Assembly: GCF_025787225.1 (NCBI RefSeq)
Contig: NZ_CP090958.1
Span: 124,001 to 188,000, forward strand
DNA length: 64,000 nucleotides
Direction: 5' to 3'
Source of the DNA: Saxibacter everestensis
GTDB taxonomy: Bacteria > Actinomycetota > Actinomycetes > Actinomycetales > Brevibacteriaceae
How positions within the stretch are numbered: position 1 is the first letter of the stretch; each line of letters starts with the position of its first letter. Both the position numbers and the translations under genes were made by a program. This document shows positions 20,279-60,897 of the stretch, piece by piece. The notes under the pieces are model-generated. The model was not told the origin of the DNA. It ran no database searches and saw only the letters and a program-made list of their open reading frames with translations.

Positions 20279-22156
20279 TCAGTCCGCATCTGCACGGAAG
20301 CGAAGGCTCAGATTGCCATACTTCGTCGCATAGCTGCTGACGTTCTCGGCAAGCTGCTTTCCAGTGTTTGACTTGGAGGCTGTGATTCTGGTCCGAGCGA
20401 ACCCGGAAGAATCCCGGATATCGAGGAACAAATCCAGTATCCCGGTTTCCGGCCACTGATACTTTTCGGCAGCGATCACGGCTTTGTACGTCGCGGCGGT
20501 TCGACCCGATGAAACCGGCTCAGCCTCGGTTAGTTCGCGGATCGCCACATCGCTTGCGCGGCCGAGGAAACAGATGTGGGCGATCGGTGCCTCAAGCGAC
20601 CGGCTCGACGCTGCCTCGACTTCGACCACGAGCTCGCCGTTGGCGGTGCTCCGAATGTCTGCCGACTTGATCCGGACATCGAAGCCGCGCACCGGTTGTT
20701 TTTGACCTTCGAGCTGGGTAAACATCCCGCCCCAGCGCCGGACGACCTCATCGTCCGCGAACAGCCGTGCTCGCCTACGGGCGGCCTCTCGCATCGCCGC
20801 CACCTCATGTTCCGGTTTAGCCAGGAACGACTTGAGCGCCTCAGTCATTGCCGCAGCGTCACCGAAGTCGATGACGAATCCACTCACGCCGTCTTCGATG
20901 ATGTCGCTTGGCCCGTATTTGACATCGTATGCAAACGGGATACATCCGACGGCCATCGCCTCGACCAGTGTCAAGCCGAAACCTTCGAACTTGCTGGTCA
21001 GCATCGTGAATGACGCGGATTGAAATGCTTCCGCCGCGCCGTCGCGGTGGCCCCAGAGCTTCACGGAATCCTGCACGCCGAGCTTGTTGATCAGGGATTG
21101 CAGGGAAGCGTGCCGGCTGCCGGAACCGTAGATATCCAGCCGGAGATCCTGCTCCAGGTTGGCGATCACCTGAATCGCGTGGTTGAGTCGCTTGGTCGAA
21201 GAAAGTCTCGCTACCACAACGCCCTTGGTACGCTCCCGGCCTCCGTCGCTTTCCTCCACGTCGGGGAGTGATCGGGAATTCGGGATCACATGAAGGTTGC
21301 CGCCGTCGCCAAGCAACCCCGTGAGATCGCGATGCTGCGCCGAGGTGAGTGTGGCGACAGCATCGAATTCGTCGAGGTGCTGAAGTCCGGCAAGCCGCGA
21401 GGCGGTTAGTCGTCCATACGGAGCGGGTTCGCCTGCCGTCAGGTGGCTGTTGTGCAGCAAGTAGATGGTCGCTGCATTGTCGCGTCGATACTGATACATG
21501 AAGTTGGCGACAGTTTTCGAATCGATCGTCAGGTAGGCGACGTCGTCACCAATGACTTTATCGAGCCAAAAGTAGTAGAGGTCGCTCACCCGGGTCCAGC
21601 TATGCAGGGGCTTGCCCGCATGGTCGCACAGCGTCACATTGCGTTTGTGTTTTCCGGGCACATCCCGCCGGTCTGACACCAGCAAAGAGCCGTCTGCCCG
21701 AAAGTAATCGACCTGGCGCACGGTCTCACCGTCATCGGCGAGCCTGGTGCGCTTCAGGGAATTGTCTCCGGTGCCTTTGCCGAGTGGAGCGAAATGCTTG
21801 TTGCGATGCCGCACCTGGAAGAGCTTCTTGCCCAGCGCGCTATCGCTGGCCGCGCGGAGTTCTTCCCACATGTTGCGGATCTGGATACCTGGGTCGAGGT
21901 CCCCGCGAGCTTCCAGCGTCCGCCGGACCACGCCATAGTCGGTGTCGCCGTCGAAGGTGAGGATGTCGACATTCGACCCGGCAAGGCGCTTGAATGCCCG
22001 GCTTCTGTGCAAGAGGACGTTCGTCATTCCGCCAAAAGTGGTCTGCACAGACCAGGTCAGTGCGAACTGTTTTCCGGGAGGAAAGGTAGTTGAATGCTGT
22101 GCAGACGTCGGCAACTGACCGCCACTTCTTTTTCGAGGATTCCAAATCGAGCACAT
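20279..22156 (-). CDS. GT4-family glycosyltransferase with C-terminal module B
   Basis: A 625-residue paralogue of the next gene in the operon. The GT4 E-x7-E motif is in FEGFGLTLVEAMAVGC near residues 386-400; GVVVARLSSTKRLNHAIQVI is near 292. Near the N-terminus are FALTWSVQTTFGGMTNVLL and IRNMWEELR, both repeated in the paralogue. The C-terminal module carries LDLFLDIRDSSGFARTRI and ends YGNLSLRFRADAD. The ATG at 22156 is the only start near the conserved N-terminus. It is divergent from the GT2 gene at 22298. The presence of two similar but not identical enzymes suggests two successive sugar additions. Confidence 0.84.
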   Translation of the reverse strand: MCSIWNPRKRSGGQLPTSAQHSTTFPPGKQFALTWSVQTTFGGMTNVLLHRSRAFKRLAGSNVDILTFDGDTDYGVVRRTLEARGDLDPGIQIRNMWEELRAASDSALGKKLFQVRHRNKHFAPLGKGTGDNSLKRTRLADDGETVRQVDYFRADGSLLVSDRRDVPGKHKRNVTLCDHAGKPLHSWTRVSDLYYFWLDKVIGDDVAYLTIDSKTVANFMYQYRRDNAATIYLLHNSHLTAGEPAPYGRLTASRLAGLQHLDEFDAVATLTSAQHRDLTGLLGDGGNLHVIPNSRSLPDVEESDGGRERTKGVVVARLSSTKRLNHAIQVIANLEQDLRLDIYGSGSRHASLQSLINKLGVQDSVKLWGHRDGAAEAFQSASFTMLTSKFEGFGLTLVEAMAVGCIPFAYDVKYGPSDIIEDGVSGFVIDFGDAAAMTEALKSFLAKPEHEVAAMREAARRRARLFADDEVVRRWGGMFTQLEGQKQPVRGFDVRIKSADIRSTANGELVVEVEAASSRSLEAPIAHICFLGRASDVAIRELTEAEPVSSGRTAATYKAVIAAEKYQWPETGILDLFLDIRDSSGFARTRITASKSNTGKQLAENVSSYATKYGNLSLRFRADAD

Positions 22157-22297
22157 TGGGTAGTGCCTAATCCTACCGAAGCCGCCTCGGTTACGCGGGG
22201 AGCCTGGTGGCTCGCTGTGTCAGGCACTCCCAGGCCGCGTCAACGCTGCTAGCGTGGGCTGAAATGTGAGCCCGATTCGAGGAGTTGGCAGGCACCT

Positions 22298-23767
22298 ATG
22301 CAGATCAAGAAGGTGCTCTATCCGGCGGTGCGACGTGCGATTGCGCTGTCGTCGAATCTTTCGGTAAAGCCGGATCCACACCTGGATCCGCTGCCTCCGG
22401 CTGACGGAGTCGAGGTTTCCCTCATCGTTCCGGTGTACAACGGCATGCCGTACTTCGAAGCACTTCTGGCAAGCCTGGAGGCTCAGGATCTGGACTCGTC
22501 CCGGTTCGAGGTGATAGTCGTCGACGACGGATCAACCGATGGCACCGTTGCCGTCGCCGATAGCTTCGCGGACCGAAACACCAACTTCAGCGTTATTCAT
22601 CAGGCGAACAGCGGCTGGCCTGGCACACCGCGTAATCGCGGCATGGAGCGGGCGACCGGCCGCTACCTCTTTTTTGCCGATGCGGACGACATCCTCGGCA
22701 AAAAATCCTTGAGACGCCTTGTCGATTTCGCCAACATCCATCACTCAGACGTTGTACTGCCGGAGATGATCGGGCTTGCCGGGCGCGGCATACCGTCTCG
22801 GATCTACCTGCGGACCCGGGTGGATGCGCCGCTGTCATTGGCATTCAAGACCTTCACACCACATAAGCTCATCCGCCGTGACCTGGTGGAATCCAACGCG
22901 CTGCGGTTTCCGGAGGGCAAGGTGCGGCTTGAGGACGGGATCTTCCTGTCACAGGTGTATCTGAAGGCGCACCGGGTCTCCATCCTTGCCGGATACAACT
23001 ACTACTACCTGCGGCGACGCACCGAGGGGAGCAACATCAGTTCCGGCGGGCTTGGCGGCGCGGTCTACGTGAGTTCGGTGAATCGAATCGCTCAGATCAT
23101 CGCCGATGGCGTCGCGGACAAACGGGAGCGGGAGGAGCTGATCCTGACCCTCTTCGCAATGAAGTGCCTGAAGATCTACCGGCCGGAGCGGTTCCGCGGC
23201 TACAGCTTGCAGCTTAAGCGCGAGTGGCTCGAGGCACACCGGGAATTCGCCGAGCGATGGATTCCGCCCGAGCTGGAAGCCCGGATGCATCCGCCATCCG
23301 CCGCGCTCACCGCGCTGATTCGGCAAGGCGACCTGGAGGGAATCCTGCGCCGTGACGGCGGACCAGTGACGCCACAGACCTCCGCGCGGATCCGCACGAT
23401 CAGCCGTGATCACGAGGAGTTTGCCTTGGTCATCGAGCTGGATGTCCTCCCGCAGCAGGCCGCGCTGGGCGACGGCGTCCTGCTGGTCACGCACCGCGAA
23501 TCCGGACGTACGCTGCCGCCATCGCCGCCCACCGCGGAGACGCCGGCCACCGCGGGGCCGCGGCGGAGCTTCCGGGCCGGCATCCCGGTCTCGGAGCTGA
23601 ACGAGAACGGAACTTACGACCTGCATTTCTCGATCCCGGTGGAAGGCCACGACATCCGCTCCCGGGTCGGCATTCCGGCGGAGGTGCATTGTCCGGGCCC
23701 GGCTGCGGGGCGGGAGGCCTATCGCACGGTGAACGGCAATCTCAGTCTGCGGGTCCGGGCAGTTTGA
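22298..23767 (+). CDS. GT2-family glycosyltransferase with C-terminal module
   Basis: A 489-residue glycosyltransferase with an N-terminal GT2 domain (VSLIVPVYNGMPYFEALL, VDDGSTDGT near residue 76, FADADDI near 126). After a helical middle region it has a beta-rich C-terminal module, including GTYDLHFSIPVEGHDIRSR, that ends VNGNLSLRVRAV, like the endings of the two GT4 proteins. Overall architecture matches the GT2 protein at 15386. The ATG at 22298 has GAGGAG about 12 bp upstream. It is followed directly by four imperfect tandem repeats and then by the cytidylyltransferase gene on the same strand. Likely adds a sugar to the surface polymer; donor unknown. Confidence 0.86.
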   Translation: MQIKKVLYPAVRRAIALSSNLSVKPDPHLDPLPPADGVEVSLIVPVYNGMPYFEALLASLEAQDLDSSRFEVIVVDDGSTDGTVAVADSFADRNTNFSVIHQANSGWPGTPRNRGMERATGRYLFFADADDILGKKSLRRLVDFANIHHSDVVLPEMIGLAGRGIPSRIYLRTRVDAPLSLAFKTFTPHKLIRRDLVESNALRFPEGKVRLEDGIFLSQVYLKAHRVSILAGYNYYYLRRRTEGSNISSGGLGGAVYVSSVNRIAQIIADGVADKREREELILTLFAMKCLKIYRPERFRGYSLQLKREWLEAHREFAERWIPPELEARMHPPSAALTALIRQGDLEGILRRDGGPVTPQTSARIRTISRDHEEFALVIELDVLPQQAALGDGVLLVTHRESGRTLPPSPPTAETPATAGPRRSFRAGIPVSELNENGTYDLHFSIPVEGHDIRSRVGIPAEVHCPGPAAGREAYRTVNGNLSLRVRAV

Positions 23768-23839
23768 CCTGAGGCGGCTCGGTGTACCTGGCGGCTCGGT
23801 GTACCTGAGGCGGCTTCGTGCACCTGGCGGTCTTGGTGA
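23768..23839. repeat. Four imperfect 17-19 bp tandem repeats
   Basis: Starting at the base after the GT2 stop codon, four imperfect copies of CCTG(AG)GCGGCTCGGTGTA run in tandem, separated from the next gene by about 55 bp. No reading frame uses them. They belong to a set of short repeats found after several stop codons in this window. Confidence 0.7.
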
Positions 23840-23894
23840 CGGCTTTGCGGCGGGAAACCTGATAATCCCGACACTCTGCGTTAACCTTGGAGCC

Positions 23895-24587
23895 ATGCCA
23901 CTTCAAGCTGTAATCCTCGCCGCAGGTATGGGCACCCGCCTGGCCCGTCCAAACCCCAAGCCGCTCACGGAGCTCAACGATGGCCGCAGCATCATGCAGC
24001 AGCAGATCGAGAACCTGGATTCAGGATTCGGCGAAGACTACCGACTGACGATCGTCGTGGGCTTCAAGCTCGAGATGATCATCGAACGGTTCCCGCAGGC
24101 ATCGTTCGTTTACAACGAGAACTACGATCAGACCAACACGTCCAAGAGCCTGCTGAAGGCGCTGAAGAACTCCGGTGATGGCGGCGTGCTCTGGATGAAT
24201 GGCGATGTCGTTTACGACCCGCAGATCCTCGGGGCGCTTAAGCCATACATCGACAAGGACGAGTCATTCATCTCGGTGAACACCGAGAAGGTCTCCGAAG
24301 AAGAGGTCAAGTACACGGTCGACGACGAGGGCTACATCAAAGAGCTCTCGAAGAAGGTCGTCGGCGGCTTGGGCGAAGCTGTCGGCATCAACTACGTGTC
24401 TGCCAAGGACAAGAAGCCACTGATCAAGCGGCTGGAAGAAGTCGACGAGCAGGAGTACTTCGAGGGTGGTATCGAGCTGATCATTCAGCACGACGGCGCC
24501 AAATTCGCGCCTGTCGACATCAGCAAGTACTACGCCGTCGAGGTCGATTTCGCAGAAGACCTGGATCGCGCCAACACGCACTTTTAG
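23895..24587 (+). CDS. Sugar/alcohol-phosphate nucleotidyltransferase, phosphocholine cytidylyltransferase-like
   Basis: A 230-residue nucleotidyltransferase. The pyrophosphorylase signature LAAGMGTRL followed by PKPLTEL is at residues 7-26, and LWMNGDVVYDPQIL near 98-111 carries the metal-binding aspartate. EGGIELI near 192 is also typical. Overall it resembles LicC-type phosphocholine cytidylyltransferases and related inositol- or glycerol-phosphate cytidylyltransferases, which make CDP-linked alcohols. That would provide substrate for the CDP-alcohol phosphatidyltransferase (12644) or the TagF-like enzymes. The ATG at 23895 follows GGAG. A strong hairpin closes the gene 25 bp after the stop, and this appears to end the polymer cluster. 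CTP versus another nucleotide cannot be decided by eye. Confidence 0.8.
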   Translation: MPLQAVILAAGMGTRLARPNPKPLTELNDGRSIMQQQIENLDSGFGEDYRLTIVVGFKLEMIIERFPQASFVYNENYDQTNTSKSLLKALKNSGDGGVLWMNGDVVYDPQILGALKPYIDKDESFISVNTEKVSEEEVKYTVDDEGYIKELSKKVVGGLGEAVGINYVSAKDKKPLIKRLEEVDEQEYFEGGIELIIQHDGAKFAPVDISKYYAVEVDFAEDLDRANTHF

Positions 24588-24756: not shown

Positions 24757-25158
24757 TCAGTGCAGGGCGTTCGCTGCCTTTTCTATCGCCAGGATCGACA
24801 CCTTGACCTGCGTTCTGCCGACGCCGCTTTCACTTAGCACGTGAGCGATCCGGCCCTGCACCTGTTCTGCGATCTCCAGGGCGGTGTAGCGAGCATCGGT
24901 CGCGATGTCGATGACGACATCGGCGCCATCCTGATGAAGACTGAGCAGAATGCCGTCCTGCCCGCCCCGATCCACCGACGGCACACTGTTCAGCCGGGCG
25001 GCGGCTTCCCTCGCGGCGCGCGCGTTGAGCCGGGAAATCGCGTTCTTCAGCGTAGGTTCCAGGCGGATCACGCCGGCCGTGTCCAGGACGGTCTGGGCTA
25101 TTACGGCGGCGAGCCGTTCGCGGCTGTCGGTTTCGCCGCTGACCGGAGTGTCAGACAT
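24757..25158 (-). CDS. Asp23/Gls24-family envelope stress protein
   Basis: A 133-residue protein of the Asp23/Gls24 family, cytoplasmic proteins linked in other Gram-positives to envelope stress and membrane-anchored assemblies. The core runs from about residue 15 (LAAVIAQTVLDTAGVIRLEP) to VKVSILAIE near 125, with two alternating beta-alpha units. Compared with typical members it lacks the glycine-rich opening. The ATG at 25158 lies inside the end of the preceding gene (8-bp overlap), so it is probably translationally coupled. It is third in an operon with an ECF sigma factor and a zinc-finger-Asp23 fusion. Its partner may be the Asp23 part of that fusion, as Asp23 proteins self-associate; this is inference. 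Confidence 0.8.
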   Translation of the reverse strand: MSDTPVSGETDSRERLAAVIAQTVLDTAGVIRLEPTLKNAISRLNARAAREAAARLNSVPSVDRGGQDGILLSLHQDGADVVIDIATDARYTALEIAEQVQGRIAHVLSESGVGRTQVKVSILAIEKAANALH

Positions 25159-25729
25159 CGTAAATATCCTCAACTACTACATCGATGGTGCGGGCGGTGA
25201 TTCCGATTTGCGCGCTGACCACGGTCACTATTCGATCCCGCAGCGTGGAAACGATCGTCGGGATTGACTGTCCCGACGACACCGACACTCGAAGCGATAT
25301 GTCGATCTTCCCCTGCGGCAGGTGATCCTGATCTGCTTCGGTGCCCGGCGACTCGATCGAGCATCTGCGGGCGTGAACGCCGGGAACTGTGTCGGCCGCG
25401 AACCGGATCACCGACGCGATGGTCTGCTCGCTGATCTGGATCTCCCCGGAGGGCGTGCGGCGCAGCGGGATCCTCCGTCCCCGGCGAACCTCCGCCCGGG
25501 CGACACTCATTATGGCGTCCTTGACGCTCCGGTGCGGGACGAGTGAATCGGACGCGGCGTCCCCGGTCCGGAACTCGTGGGTGGCGTCTGCGAGCCGCTG
25601 CAGACTGGCCCGTGCAGCCTGGCACTGCTGGCAGTCCAGCCCGTGGGCTGTGGGTGGGGCATCGATATTTCTCCACAGCTCGTCGATCGCGGTGCCGCAC
25701 CCCAAGCGGGGTACATCATCTAGCGCCAT
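25151..25729 (-). CDS. Putative anti-sigma factor: zinc finger joined to Asp23/Gls24 domain
   Basis: A 192-residue protein with two parts. The first 50 residues carry His29-x3-Cys33-x2-Cys36 (HGLDCQQC) with Cys11 as a possible fourth ligand. This is the pattern of zinc-binding anti-sigma domains (ZAS/zf-HC2). Residues about 80-192 resemble the Asp23/Gls24 fold (IQISEQTIASVIRFAADTVPGV, then ISLRVSVSSGQSIP and DVVVEDIYDV). There is no transmembrane helix, unlike many anti-sigma factors. The ATG at 25729 overlaps the ECF sigma gene by 10 bp, the usual order for a sigma and its inhibitor. The Asp23 part would then be the sensor or anchor. That it binds the adjacent sigma is inference from motif and gene order. 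Confidence 0.78.
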   Translation of the reverse strand: MALDDVPRLGCGTAIDELWRNIDAPPTAHGLDCQQCQAARASLQRLADATHEFRTGDAASDSLVPHRSVKDAIMSVARAEVRRGRRIPLRRTPSGEIQISEQTIASVIRFAADTVPGVHARRCSIESPGTEADQDHLPQGKIDISLRVSVSSGQSIPTIVSTLRDRIVTVVSAQIGITARTIDVVVEDIYDV

Positions 25730-26325
25730 GGGGTCATCCCTTCAGCTAGTTGGATTCGTGCGCGCGCGATCCGGCCGCGTACGGTCGACTGCTCGATCGA
25801 CAAAATATGAGCTATCTCAGCGTAGGACCTGCCATGGACCTCGCGCAGTAGCCAGCACGCCCTTTGTTCCGGAGGGATCTTCTTCAAGAGCCTGGCCAGA
25901 TCAGTCATTTGTGCCGTGATCTCCGCCTCGTGCGCCGGGTCCGAAGAACCCGCGGACCGAGTCGGGAGGTCTGAATTGGCAGCCTCCACCAGGTCGCTTG
26001 GATCGGTGGCGTCGGACGGGCGGGTGGATCGCTGCCGCAGCAGGTCAAAGCATCGGTTGGTGGCGACCTGGTAGACCCAGCCGCTGAATGCTCCCGGGCT
26101 AGCCAGGGTTGGGAGTTTCCGCCAGGCCGCGATGAGCGTGTCCTGCACGACATCCTCCGCTTCCTCGCGGTTCGCCAGCATCCGGTAGCCAAGCCGGAAA
26201 ATTCGGCCCTGGTAGGCGTCGACGAGCCGCTCGAAGGCGTCAAGATCGCCGTCCTGGGCACGCGCGACAAGCGCGTCCTCTTCGAGCCCGAGCGGTGTGG
26301 CAGTCTCGTCGGCTGTCCCGGTCAC
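25720..26325 (-). CDS. ECF-family RNA polymerase sigma factor
   Basis: A 201-residue extracytoplasmic-function sigma factor. Region 2 lies at about residues 30-95 (FRLGYRMLANREEAEDVVQDTL, with RQRSTR after it). Region 4 lies at about 148-193, with a helix-turn-helix around SYAEIAHILSIEQSTVRGRI. Between them is a polar linker. The start is GTG at 26325 behind a near-perfect AAGGAGG (26333-26339). It overlaps the putative zinc-finger anti-sigma gene. The target promoters are unknown. Its own upstream region does not show the GGAAC-type -35 element of the best-known ECF sigmas, so autoregulation cannot be claimed. Proximity to the surface-polymer cluster makes envelope genes plausible targets. 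Confidence 0.92.
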   Translation of the reverse strand: MTGTADETATPLGLEEDALVARAQDGDLDAFERLVDAYQGRIFRLGYRMLANREEAEDVVQDTLIAAWRKLPTLASPGAFSGWVYQVATNRCFDLLRQRSTRPSDATDPSDLVEAANSDLPTRSAGSSDPAHEAEITAQMTDLARLLKKIPPEQRACWLLREVHGRSYAEIAHILSIEQSTVRGRIARARIQLAEGMTPWR

Positions 26326-26378
26326 GCCGCCTCCTTACCGGATACACAAACTGCAGGGTCCTGTATAAGCGTCGCATA

Positions 26379-26384
26379 TAGACT
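26379..26384 (+). promoter_or_regulatory. -10 box for a leaderless DUF3151 transcript
   Basis: TAGACT ends 6 bp before the ATG of the DUF3151 gene, and there is no ribosome binding site between. This arrangement (TANNNT, about 6-7 bp, then the start codon at the transcript's first base) is the leaderless type common in actinobacteria. Confidence 0.5.
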
Positions 26385-26390
26385 GGCCGC

Positions 26391-27013: not shown

Positions 27014-28300
27014 ATGCCAGCGATCGTGCTCGTCGGTGCTCAGTGGGGCGACGAAGGCAAGGGCAAAGCCACGGACCTTCTTGGCAGCCAGGTCGATTAC
27101 GTGGTCAAGCCCAACGGCGGAAACAACGCCGGGCACACAGTGGTCGTCGGCGGTGACAAGTACGAACTCAAACTGCTCCCGGCCGGCATCCTCAGCCCCA
27201 ATAGTGTTCCAATCATCGGTAACGGCGTGGTCGTCAACCTCGAGGCCTTGTTCGAGGAAATTGATGGACTGCAGGCTCGCGGTGCTGACACGTCCCGGCT
27301 GTTGGTTTCGGCCAATGCTCATCTGGTTGCTCCGTACCATCAGGTGCTGGACAAGGTTACCGAACGCTTTCTTGGCAAACGCGCCATCGGCACGACCGGC
27401 CGCGGCATCGGGCCGTCCTACGCCGACAAGGTTGCCAGGCTCGGCATTCGGGTGCAGGACATCTTCGACGAATCGATCCTTCGGCAGAAGGTCGAGGGTG
27501 CCCTGCGGCAGAAGAACGAGCTGCTGCTCAAGGTCTACAACCGGCGCGGTATCGAGGTCGACGAGATCGTCGACTACTTCTTGGCGTTCGCCGAGCGGCT
27601 TCGTCCGATGGTCGTTGACAGCGCCCTCGTGCTGAACAACGCCCTGGACGAGGGCAAGCTCGTGCTGATGGAGGGCGGGCAGGCCACCATGCTCGACGTC
27701 GACCACGGGACCTACCCGTTCGTGACGTCATCGAACCCATCGGCCGGTGGCTCATGCGTAGGATCCGGTGTCGGCCCGACCCGGATCGACCGGGTGCTCG
27801 GAATAGTCAAGGCGTACACCACCCGGGTTGGCGCCGGCCCGTTCCCCACCGAGCTGTTCGACGAATGGGGCGTCTACCTGCAGACCACGGGAGGCGAAGT
27901 TGGCGTCAACACCGGCCGGGTACGCCGCTGTGGTTGGTACGACGCTGTCCTGGCGCGTTATGCCTCCCGGGTCAACGGCTTTACTGACTACTTTCTGACC
28001 AAGCTCGACGTCCTGACCAGCATTGAAAAAATCCCGGTGTGTGTTGCCTACGACGTCGACGGCGTCCGGCACGACGAAATGCCGATGTCGCAGTCGGACT
28101 TCCACCATGCCACCCCGATCTACGAAGAGTTCGACGGCTGGACGGAAGACATTACCGCCGCCCGGACGTTCGAGGACCTGCCGATCAACGCGCAAAACTA
28201 CGTGCTGGCCCTGGAAAAGATGTCCGGAACGCGGATCTCCGCCATCGGTGTCGGCCCCGATCGGGAACAAACAATCGTCCGTAACGACCTGATCAACTAG
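27014..28300 (+). CDS. purA: Adenylosuccinate synthetase
   Basis: A 428-residue GTP-dependent enzyme joining IMP and aspartate to adenylosuccinate, the first committed step to AMP. The N-terminal [16 protein letters not shown] is the phosphate-binding loop; [20 protein letters not shown] near residue 128 with the catalytic region, and the C-terminal [13 protein letters not shown] are diagnostic. Length matches the family. The ATG at 27014 follows GATGAGGTGAA. It stands alone, with a 164-bp leader holding a stem-loop upstream and five 14-bp tandem repeats starting two bases after its stop. No anomaly in the active site was noticed. Confidence 0.97.
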
Positions 28301-28302
28301 TC

Positions 28303-28372
28303 TGACTCCGGCGCGCTGACTCCGGCGCGCTGACTCCGGCGCGCTGACTCCGGCGCGCTGACTCCGGCGCGC
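28303..28372. repeat. Five perfect 14-bp tandem repeats after purA
   Basis: TGACTCCGGCGCGC is repeated five times without change from 28303 to 28372, beginning two bases after the purA stop. Each unit contains a TGA, and GGCGCGC is partly self-complementary. Perfect identity suggests recent expansion by slippage. No gene uses the region. Confidence 0.9.
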
Positions 28373-28481
28373 TGCCCGGTCTCGTGCCACGCTCGGGGGC
28401 ATGGTCTCCGTTGACCACGGTGACCAGTCGTACTCGGCTAATCCGGTGTGACTGCCTGCTCTTCTGTGCCACGCTTGCAAT

Positions 28482-33037: not shown

Positions 33038-33459
33038 GCTGCCGCGGGCTTCGCGCCAGGGCACCGCGATTCGGCGTGGTCCCTGCCCTGCGGCCGCTCC
33101 ACGGCGACGGCAATCGGTGACAGGCCTGTCTATCGGCGAGCGGATCGCCGCCTAGCCGCGTCACGACCTGACTAGCCGCGTCACGGCCTGCCTAGCCGCG
33201 TCACGACCTGCCTAGCCGCGTCACGACCTGACGCACGGCCGCGCGAGGCTTCGCTATCGGCCGCGCCCGCAGCCCAGGCGCCTGCCGCGCCCGCAGCCCA
33301 GCACGGCTCTTACCCGTCGCCCAGCACGGCTCGAGTCGAGGATTCGCCGAGGTCGAGACCGAAACAAATTTTCACAACATGATCTCCGTCACTATTGACA
33401 GCGGCAGTCTATAAGAATACGTTTCATCTCAACAAAGGCGTTCGAAAGGGAATTTCAAA
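33038..33459. other. Repeat-bearing intergenic region before the amino-sugar operon
   Basis: A 422-bp stretch without a credible gene. Its first half is GC-rich and contains four 20-bp tandem repeats (33152-33231) and further copies of GCCGCGCCCGCAGCCCAG near 33260-33300. The last 100 bp is AT-rich and holds TTGACA (33394-33399), which may belong to the promoter of the RpiR gene, although no good -10 box lies at standard spacing. Confidence 0.5.
33152..33231. repeat. Four 20-bp tandem repeats
   Basis: CTAGCCGCGTCACGACCTGM is present four times in exact register (33152, 33172, 33192, 33212) with only single-base differences. No reading frame or known protein site corresponds. It lies 115 bp after the APH-like kinase stop. 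Confidence 0.88.
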
Positions 33460-41520: not shown

Positions 41521-42792
41521 TCAGGGCTTGGCGCGTAGGCGCCACAAGGTTACGACTTCCGCGGCTCGGATCGACGCCAGTGGGTCTTGGCCGTCGAGCG
41601 CTCGCGGATGTCGAGGACTGGTGTGGAGGCGACCGGCCACACTCAGACCGGCCTGATCCAACATGTCGATGAATTGCTCGCGGCTGCGCAGGCCGAGCCG
41701 TTCGGCCAGGTCGGAGAGCACGAGCCAGCATTCTCCATGCTCGGTGAGATGGTTGGGCAAATCGCTGATCAGCCGGGACAGCATCTGGCTGCGCCGATCG
41801 AAGACTCCCTTTTCCAGCGTCGATGTCGGAGTTGCCGGCACCCATGGCGGGTTGCAAACCACCAGATCGGCCCGGCCTGGCGGGTAGAGGTCGGCCTGCA
41901 GGACTTCTACCTGGTTGGCCATTTCAAGCCGCCGCATGTTGTCCCTTGCACACTCAACGGCGCGTGGTTCGATGTCGGTAGCGACGACGTGTCGCACGCC
42001 GCGCCGGACCAGCAGTGCCGCGAGCACGCCGGTGCCGGTGCCGATGTCGAAAGCTGTGTCGACTGTGGTCGGCTCGAAAGCTGTGTCGACTGTGGTCGGC
42101 TCGAAAGCCGTGTCGACTGTGGTCGCCGCGGACACTGATACAGGGGCTCGGTCAACCTCGGCCGCTGTTGCTGGGGCTCGGTCGACCTCAGCCTGTGGCC
42201 ACTCGGCGTTCGCGACCAGGTCGACGTACTCGTTTCGGGTAGGAGCGAAAACACCGTAGTGCGGGTGAATGCGGGCATCGAGCGCCGGAATCACTACGCC
42301 TCGCCGTCGCCACTCGCTGGCCCCGATCATGCCAAGCAGTTCCTGAAGTGAGACGAGCACTGGGCCCGACGAATCGCCGAAGACCTCCTGACAGGCAGCC
42401 TGCACGTCTGGCGCGCGAGTCAGGTCGATCTGGTAGGCGGGGCCGACTTCGATCAGCAGCATGCTGAGGATTCGGGTTCTATGCGCCTTTGCCTGGCGAA
42501 GGCGATGAAACGTAACTGCCGGAGTCTCGGCCGGCTTCACATCGATGCGGTCGAGCCGCCGCTTGAGTGCGTCAAGGAGTTGACGGGCGTTGACGAAGTC
42601 GCCTCGCCACAGCATCCCGGTGCCTTCGGAGGCCAGCCTCAGAGCGACGTCGGCCCGCAGCCGATCATTAACGATCTCGATCCGGGTCGGCGGCTTCGTG
42701 GTTCCACTCGTCAGCAAAGGCGACGATCGCTGCTGGCCGTTTTCGGCCCAGTCGATCAACACCAGATTTTCCTGGCCACTCGGACTCCCCAA
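41521..42792 (-). CDS. SAM-dependent methyltransferase with in-frame triplication
   Basis: A 423-residue class I methyltransferase of the type that modifies amino groups in proteins or nucleic acids (HemK/RsmC-like core). Motif I is FDIGTGTGVLAALL near residue 240; the NPPW catalytic motif (VVCNPPWVPA) lies near 302. The N-terminal 200 residues form a separate helical domain. Directly before motif I the nine-residue unit TTVDTAFEP is repeated (two copies plus a third ending FDI), coded by three 27-bp tandem repeats at 42047-42127. A smaller duplication (AEVDRAP twice) precedes it. Without these insertions the domain would have ordinary length. The start at 42792 is the longest plausible; an internal start near residue 60 is possible. 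Target unknown. Confidence 0.78.
   Translation of the reverse strand: MGSPSGQENLVLIDWAENGQQRSSPLLTSGTTKPPTRIEIVNDRLRADVALRLASEGTGMLWRGDFVNARQLLDALKRRLDRIDVKPAETPAVTFHRLRQAKAHRTRILSMLLIEVGPAYQIDLTRAPDVQAACQEVFGDSSGPVLVSLQELLGMIGASEWRRRGVVIPALDARIHPHYGVFAPTRNEYVDLVANAEWPQAEVDRAPATAAEVDRAPVSVSAATTVDTAFEPTTVDTAFEPTTVDTAFDIGTGTGVLAALLVRRGVRHVVATDIEPRAVECARDNMRRLEMANQVEVLQADLYPPGRADLVVCNPPWVPATPTSTLEKGVFDRRSQMLSRLISDLPNHLTEHGECWLVLSDLAERLGLRSREQFIDMLDQAGLSVAGRLHTSPRHPRALDGQDPLASIRAAEVVTLWRLRAKP
42047..42127. repeat. Three 27-bp in-frame tandem repeats in the methyltransferase
   Basis: Three copies starting at 42047, 42074 and 42101, the first two identical and the third with few changes. The period is a multiple of three, so the reading frame is kept and nine residues are added per copy, just before the SAM-binding motif. 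Confidence 0.92.
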
Positions 42793-60764: not shown

Positions 60765-60813
60765 GCCATCACTTTAACGTGGCGTCGTCGGGCGCACACC
60801 CAGCCAAGGCGCT

Positions 60814-60864
60814 CAGTTAGCCAAGGCGGTCAGTTAGCCAAGGCGGTCAGTTAGCCAAGGCGGT
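60814..60864. repeat. Three 17-bp tandem repeats between the GAF-ANTAR genes
   Basis: CAGTTAGCCAAGGCGGT is repeated three times exactly (60814, 60831, 60848) with partial copies on both sides. They lie just after the stop (minus strand, 60898) of the upstream GAF-ANTAR gene. Confidence 0.88.
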
Positions 60865-60897
60865 CAGTCTCGCGGGGGGCTCAGTCCGGTAGGGCGC

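Follow-up and report, generated by a model that had tools for sequence, protein, structure and literature searches.

Which genes does an extracytoplasmic function (ECF) sigma factor serve when its gene overlaps that of an anti-sigma-like protein carrying an Asp23 domain, and what might that domain sense? The question is raised by a locus of Saxibacter everestensis in the window analyzed here, a 64,000-nucleotide stretch covering positions 124,001 to 188,000 of contig NZ_CP090958.1 (assembly GCF_025787225.1); coordinates refer to this window unless given as genome positions. Three consecutive minus-strand open reading frames (ORFs) encode the sigma factor (201 amino acids), a middle protein (192 amino acids), and a last protein (133 amino acids) (Table 1). 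A preliminary description, made from the sequence alone, had reported their place and overlaps of 10 bp and 8 bp between neighbors, all of which we confirmed from the sequence and the ORF list. In the explanation that best fits the results below, the locus encodes an ECF sigma factor, a soluble zinc-type class I anti-sigma/Asp23 fusion, and an Asp23-like partner, and the released sigma factor probably transcribes the canonical Asp23/AmaP operon. The results on which this explanation builds, namely, the domains, their homology, the conserved gene overlap, linkage, co-occurrence, and the promoter-like motif, are computed.

The module is real and widely conserved. A search of actinobacterial genomes for zinc-domain and Asp23 fusions beside ECF genes, as the preliminary description had proposed, recovered 46 loci in a motif-based scan, in Nocardia, Amycolatopsis, Arthrobacter, Sciscionella, Pseudonocardia, Serinibacter, Microlunatus, Streptomyces, and others (each locus extends about 4 kb to either side, some being shortened by contig ends). 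Searching 394 genomes of the class with a profile yielded matches in 166, in many cases confined to the Asp23 part. At 73 of 76 loci, an in-frame start of the middle gene yields an overlap of exactly 10 bp with the sigma gene, and the other three have a 4-bp overlap; the script chose the in-frame start nearest the 10-bp position, and the 76 loci include the window (L094) and some duplicates. A small Asp23-like gene lies downstream in 34 of the 46 scan loci by phmmer, and several more were picked by eye for alignment.

The sigma factor itself is an ordinary ECF protein, with Pfam matches above cut-off to Sigma70_r2 (E value, 2e-18) and r4_2 (2.6e-12); its gene has a GTG start with AAGGAGG immediately upstream, as judged by eye. 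In a tree of 53 sigma factors, it groups with those of three Arthrobacter loci and one locus of the same order, all with the same module (support 93/87, not starred), and zinc-poor module groups fall on separate branches; many deep branches of this tree are weak.

We next consider the N-terminal domain of the middle protein, which the preliminary description had likened to zinc anti-sigma domains. A profile of 77 module N termini was compared by hhalign with 24 zf-HC2 proteins that adjoin sigma genes in related genomes. This comparison gave 96.5% (score, 50.7), versus a maximum of 9.2% (score, 19.0) in 100 column-shuffled template controls, and supports the likeness. With the four ligand columns masked, hhalign still gave 57% (score, 26.6), and the homology to zinc anti-sigma domains thus exceeds the cysteine motif. 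As judged by these profiles, the N-terminal domain is homologous to sigma-adjacent class I zinc anti-sigma (ZAS) domains. In an AlphaFold2 model, its helices span residues 15 to 20, 28 to 32, 34 to 59, and 67 to 84. The mean predicted local distance difference test score (pLDDT) of the whole protein is 85.8, with block means of 95 to 97 for residues 11 to 50 and 75 to 78 for residues 61 to 80, and the first three helices are modeled at high pLDDT; the whole-model predicted template modeling score is 0.50, and therefore the relative placement of the N-terminal and Asp23 domains is not given by the model. The protein has no clear transmembrane segment (highest 19-residue hydropathy, 1.46, versus 3.12 for AmaP). 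In the preliminary description, zinc anti-sigma domains were held to sit on a membrane segment or to stand alone, a premise that proved too narrow, as, according to a passage of a survey of these domains, about 35% of class I anti-sigma factors are likely to be soluble (PMC7406223).

Beyond residue 80, where the preliminary description had seen an Asp23 domain, the Asp23 fold is indeed present: Pfam PF03780 matches residues 95 to 189 at 35.1 bits (cut-off, 28), and the fold match covers residues 98 to 192. The modeled domain matches the MamM C-terminal domain (Z score, 10.8; root mean square deviation [rmsd], 1.8; 77 residues aligned). The 133-amino-acid protein is read from an ATG start (the ORF list also holds an alternative 138-amino-acid TTG form) and has no Pfam match above cut-off, that of PF03780 included; 26 of the 31 members of its family match PF03780 at E values up to 0.1 (best, 1.6e-13). 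The 31-row family aligns with canonical Asp23 at 97.2% in hhalign, and the model of the protein (pLDDT, 83.0) matches the MamM C-terminal domain (Z score, 11.4; rmsd, 2.0; 81 residues aligned), with the same best MamM matches as the Asp23 domain of the 192-amino-acid protein. The second gene, too, is therefore Asp23-like as first described, by profile and fold, and because its product lacks a Pfam match, we call it Asp23-like only. The leading fold matches come from cation-diffusion transporters and cover their C-terminal domains (MamM); a metal transport reading of them was discarded, and we take them to reflect a shared fold.

The recurrent neighbor of the module is a canonical Asp23 gene. 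Such a gene lies inside 38 of the 46 scan loci, the 8 loci without it being all from Amycolatopsis; when six loci were read gene by gene, it was found in five and not in Amycolatopsis bullii. Of 25 genomes of the window's family, 13 have matches to both the module and canonical Asp23, and the other 12 have no match to either. A canonical Asp23 gene stands within about 3 kb of the module in 12 of 24 relatives of this family. The module and the canonical Asp23/AmaP operon are 3.4 Mb apart in the window's own genome, where the operon encodes Asp23, a second Asp23 protein, a DUF6286 membrane protein, AmaP (64.2 bits; cut-off, 55), and CsbD.

A promoter-like motif connects the two. Upstream of 57 sigma genes, the commonest bipartite word was CGTGA/GTGT, present at 23 of the 57 versus at most 10 in each of five shuffles. 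In most of the tested genomes that carry the module, the motif CGTGACG-N14-G(T/C)GTC also precedes canonical Asp23 genes. Allowing up to one mismatch, we scored matches to CGTGACG-N13..15-GYGTC in the regions before canonical Asp23 genes, with spacer 14 scored separately. At spacers of 13 to 15, sites were present in 31 of the 38 linked scan loci, 8 of 16 additional loci from the profile search, 10 of 12 genomes of the window's family, 6 of 8 Amycolatopsis genomes with an unlinked Asp23 gene, and the window's own genome (1/1), with a shuffled background of 56/3,000; at spacer 14, the corresponding counts were 25/38, 3/16, 9/12, 6/8, and 1/1, with a background of 13/3,000. In a seventh Amycolatopsis genome, the second Asp23 copy is preceded by a site of this kind. 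Controls without a full module had sites in 0 of 30 cases at spacer 14 and in 5 of 30 at spacers 13 to 15; four of these five carry a sigma factor with a reduced Asp23 anti-sigma protein (10-bp overlap kept), leaving 1 in 26. The window's genome (4.05 Mb) contains a single exact match with spacer 14, at genome positions 3556977 to 3557002, which lies 48 bp upstream of the Asp23 start codon, downstream of an apparent terminator (judged by eye) and ahead of a ribosome site. At spacers 13 to 15, this genome holds 14 matches versus 8 for a backward control; of the other 13, 9 fall within open frames of at least 200 codons and 4 outside them (L148, L151, L152, and L161). Sites are also found upstream of the sigma gene in 32 of the 46 scan loci. 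Together, these patterns suggest that the sigma factor activates the Asp23 envelope-protein genes of the cell in which it is made. Its own operon is probably a further target in Nocardia, Amycolatopsis, and at least one Streptomyces.

Several points weigh against this assignment. Sites upstream of the sigma gene were found in just 2 of 22 later profile-search loci. The window's own sigma gene has no good CGTGACG-N14-GYGTC site upstream, the best having three mismatches; there is thus no sign of autoregulation in this genome, and we set that reading aside. In a zinc-poor clade of the same order (L099, L103, L106, L109, and L111), the best Asp23 sites have two to three mismatches, and in Amycolatopsis bullii, where the module is present, the best Asp23 gene has no site at one mismatch or fewer. 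The second half of the motif was widened from GTGT(C) to GYGTC after the Arthrobacter and own-genome sites had been viewed, and the zero-mismatch score of the own-genome site, which has one mismatch to the first form, is thus partly post hoc. Because the sequences are related, the motif counts are not independent and are inflated. Shuffling makes for a milder background than real DNA does: when 450-bp windows of the loci were left unshuffled, 102/3,000 had a spacer-14 site, a count that includes the true ones. Because the controls were judged from 3-kb loci and seven top profile-search candidates, a module lying farther away in them could have gone unnoticed.

With regard to the anti-sigma domain, the window protein does not match Pfam zf-HC2 (PF13490), and neither do 32 of 33 rows, the remaining one matching weakly (E value, 0.025); the domain is thus not filed under PF13490. 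The fold search matched residues 98 to 192 alone, leaving the four-helix domain without an independent structural match, and no anti-sigma structure was among the matches listed. A weak sequence match (E value, 0.15) was to 3hug_B, which we take to be RslA (database title, "probable conserved membrane protein"). Because 8 of 76 relatives reach at least 1.6 in the 19-residue hydropathy scan (highest, 1.88), the solubility of all relatives is uncertain. Finally, several steps of the proposal are inferred: that the protein binds and inhibits the sigma factor, that this factor recognizes the motif, which signal is sensed, and which way the feedback runs.

Other Asp23 genes and motif matches came up in the same searches. 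Seven of the eight Amycolatopsis genomes that were searched have another locus in which a second copy of canonical Asp23 accompanies a different ECF-like sigma gene (L172 to L176, L178, and L179); these loci have no upstream CGTGACG-N14 site (three to four mismatches) and perhaps represent another Asp23-linked sigma system. Two genomes of family f18 (G060 and G164; loci L027, L034, L192, and L210) encode an Asp23-type protein with the module linker, and in L192 and L210 its gene diverges from canonical Asp23. No sigma gene was found in these loci of 3.3 kb, which may hold a module from which the sigma factor has been lost. In Nocardia loci such as L046, L051, and L053, a further small gene lies between the small Asp23-like and canonical Asp23 genes; its product shows a recurring stretch of the type ALPLPPLL...LRLVVTELDAAA, and it may be another member of the Asp23 operon. 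In the window's genome, a spacer-15 match (L155; genome positions 2680886 to 2680912, minus strand) lies in an open frame 125 bp before a start, either a candidate second target or a chance match; the gene downstream is presumably citrate-synthase-like.

Does the zinc site act as the sensor? As the preliminary description had stated, the window protein contains C11 and H29-x3-C33-x2-C36, that is, an Hx3Cx2C signature with an upstream fourth ligand. The C-H-C-C set is complete in 46 of 46 scan loci, a count biased by scan patterns that themselves contained the motif. Among 30 profile-search loci, window included (8 of them, the window among these, are rows of the search profile), 20 keep C-H-C-C, 4 lack H29 only, and 6 lack the first three ligands; the latter, which retain C36 alone, read DSSC (four loci), HSSC, and SENC and keep the sigma gene and the overlap. 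Within the window's family, all 12 of the relatives that carry the module have lost the whole zinc segment, and their reduced N termini align with helices 3 and 4 of the domain (hhalign, 81%; six rows compared). Four genomes of another family (f104) also lack the segment and have the Asp23 promoter-like site, and their reduced N termini hardly align (hhalign, 7.3%). These two comparisons ran counter to a by-eye expectation that the reduced N termini correspond to helices 1 and 4. The preliminary description had made its reading depend on conservation of the His/Cys pattern in homologs: the pattern is kept in two-thirds of the profile-search loci and is absent from several lineages, among them all 12 module-bearing relatives in the window's own family, which half bears out this refuting condition.

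These counts bear on a reading in which the zinc site senses as in RsrA and RshA, thiol oxidation expelling zinc and freeing the sigma factor while the Asp23 domain only positions the protein. The complete ligand set of the window protein and of the 20 profile-search loci would fit it, as would the statement in part of the survey that zinc motifs are over-represented (about 72%) in those class I anti-sigma factors that are soluble (PMC7406223). However, the ten profile-search loci with fewer ligands retain the sigma gene and the overlap, and both the same-family modules without the zinc segment (10 of 12) and the four f104 genomes have a promoter-like site at Asp23. Because several lineages lose the zinc site yet keep the module, zinc sensing is unlikely as the core mechanism, and we consider this reading improbable. 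Zinc is treated here as structural or optional, on account of these losses and of the same survey, which in the portion used describes zinc and non-zinc class I domains as intermixed, at times inside one group (PMC7406223).

The reduced N termini also raise the possibility that the middle protein is an Asp23-scaffold adaptor or coactivator, an anti-sigma factor by descent only and not an inhibitor. Reduced versions do persist beside the sigma gene, aligning with the last two helices or hardly at all. On the other hand, profile homology across most of the domain and the tight coupling to the sigma gene are anti-sigma traits, and helix 4 is the sigma2-binding helix of class I domains, in which helix 1 sits on sigma4, according to a section of the survey (PMC7406223). 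We regard the adaptor reading as slightly less probable still than zinc sensing.

We therefore return to an anti-sigma factor whose likely target is the Asp23/AmaP operon. In the mechanism we propose, the anti-sigma domain would hold the sigma factor; a change of partner or state of the Asp23 domain would free it; and the free sigma factor would transcribe the canonical Asp23/AmaP envelope operon from the CGTGACG-N14-G(T/C)GTC promoter. Since the presumed sensor domain and the product are related, the circuit could form a homeostatic loop in which the domain senses free or membrane-assembled Asp23 and so reports on the Asp23/AmaP scaffold. Part of a study of Staphylococcus aureus describes Asp23 as tethered to the membrane by AmaP and forming filaments (PMC6954212), and the Asp23 domain on the inhibitor could thus join such a scaffold. 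The proposal of the preliminary description that Asp23 assembly controls sigma release would fit an Asp23/AmaP target. In its fullest form, which we offer tentatively and as possible rather than probable, the module is a product-sensing anti-sigma system: an inhibitor with the fold of the product would join or leave the Asp23/AmaP scaffold, letting the cell gauge assembly and make more when short, and the zinc finger would be old and dispensable, some lineages keeping just the last helices and the Asp23 domain.

The preliminary description had further suggested that the switch acts on a surface-polymer cluster beside it. Three sugar-related proteins are encoded at 20279 to 24587, two glycosyltransferase-like by eye and one a nucleotidyltransferase by Pfam, and their proximity is what would favor this target. 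Against it, the last of the three genes ends at 24587 on the opposite strand; the nucleotidyltransferase gene is convergent; none of the three proteins has a relative at E values up to 1e-5 in any of the 46 scan loci (phmmer), where Asp23 is the recurrent neighbor; and the sole exact spacer-14 motif of the genome is at the Asp23 operon. Action on these genes is thus unsupported, and we rejected the cluster as the sigma target, a role that we hold to be very improbable. The DUF3151 protein and the product of the gene at 27014 to 28300, which we take to be purA-like, likewise have no relatives in the 46 scan loci.

Table 1. Features of the sigma/Asp23 locus in window coordinates
Feature	Position	Strand	Evidence or remark
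ECF sigma factor, 201 amino acids	25720..26325	-	Pfam Sigma70_r2 and r4_2, sequence, tree of sigma factors
Putative soluble anti-sigma factor, 192 amino acids, zinc-type anti-sigma domain and Asp23 domain	25151..25729	-	Pfam, hhalign, model
N-terminal anti-sigma domain, residues 1-84	25478..25729	-	AlphaFold2 model, hhalign
Zinc-ligand pattern C11, H29-x3-C33-x2-C36	25622..25699	-	Sequence and conservation counts
Asp23 domain, residues 95-189	25163..25447	-	Pfam and fold match
Second Asp23-like protein, 133 amino acids	24757..25158	-	Family hhalign, model, fold match
Sigma/anti-sigma gene overlap, 10 bp; sigma C terminus -PWR	25720..25729	-	Sequence, start-codon survey
Anti-sigma/second Asp23-like gene overlap, 8 bp	25151..25158	-	Sequence
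Gap between sigma gene and divergent DUF3151 gene	26326..26390		Best motif site upstream of sigma: 3 mismatches

Elsewhere in the window, Rfam gave no match at gathering thresholds. A perfect 14-bp tandem repeat, CTGACTCCGGCGCG (28302 to 28374; 5.2 copies; 100% match), follows right after the stop codon of the presumed purA-like gene and may be a terminator-region or hypervariable repeat. Short tandem arrays lie at 60802 to 60868 (17-bp unit, 98%), 42047 to 42125 (27-bp unit, 98%), and 33152 to 33232 (20-bp unit, 93%).

For a sigma factor with an Asp23-fold inhibitor and a likely promoter ahead of Asp23 genes in many actinobacteria, identifying the activator would reveal what Asp23 responds to, a protein whose molecular function was called unclear in a passage of the 2020 S. 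aureus study (PMC6954212). In Streptomyces, an Asp23 gene was lowered after ethanol shock, and the pertinent part of that report makes no sigma link (PMC9769785). The natural series from a full zinc site through lost ligands to a deleted segment would separate sensory from structural roles of zinc in anti-sigma factors. Were product sensing true, a cell would measure an assembled envelope scaffold and make more of it when short. A search of a PubMed Central subset by titles and abstract starts yielded, among the matches listed, no paper testing an Asp23 anti-sigma factor or naming its target. What is new here is the likely target operon; the middle protein is best seen as a soluble class I anti-sigma factor variant in which Asp23 is the presumed sensor domain.

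How does the module compare with known systems? It shares with groups ECF286 and ECF292 an ECF sigma factor beside a soluble Asp23-family putative anti-sigma factor, a likeness in gene neighborhood. The assignment of these groups reportedly stems from the classification of Casas-Pastor et al. in 2021, which may say more than the review cited next. In a passage of that review, soluble Asp23-family proteins adjoining ECF286 and ECF292 are predicted anti-sigma factors, and the sigma/Asp23 anti-sigma pairing is therefore not new; unlike our results, the passage lists zinc-domain groups separately and names neither a zinc anti-sigma/Asp23 fusion nor a target (PMC8999054). With soluble zinc class I factors of the RsrA/RshA type, the module shares a homologous N-terminal C-H-C-C domain beside an ECF gene, whereas its protein adds a C-terminal Asp23 domain and has lost zinc in several lineages; because lineages that keep the module lose ligands, RsrA-like thiol sensing is unlikely as a general mechanism. 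With S. aureus Asp23/AmaP, it shares the Asp23 family, and the presumed target operon has Asp23 and an AmaP match above cut-off; there, however, Asp23 is a membrane-tethered, filament-forming product, whereas here an Asp23 domain would also be the sensor. In the FliA/FlgM system, the state of an assembled product sets sigma activity, and FlgM is exported. If the proposed model holds, the state of an assembled product would set sigma activity here as well, with the difference that the inhibitor, rather than being exported, is fused to a relative of the product.

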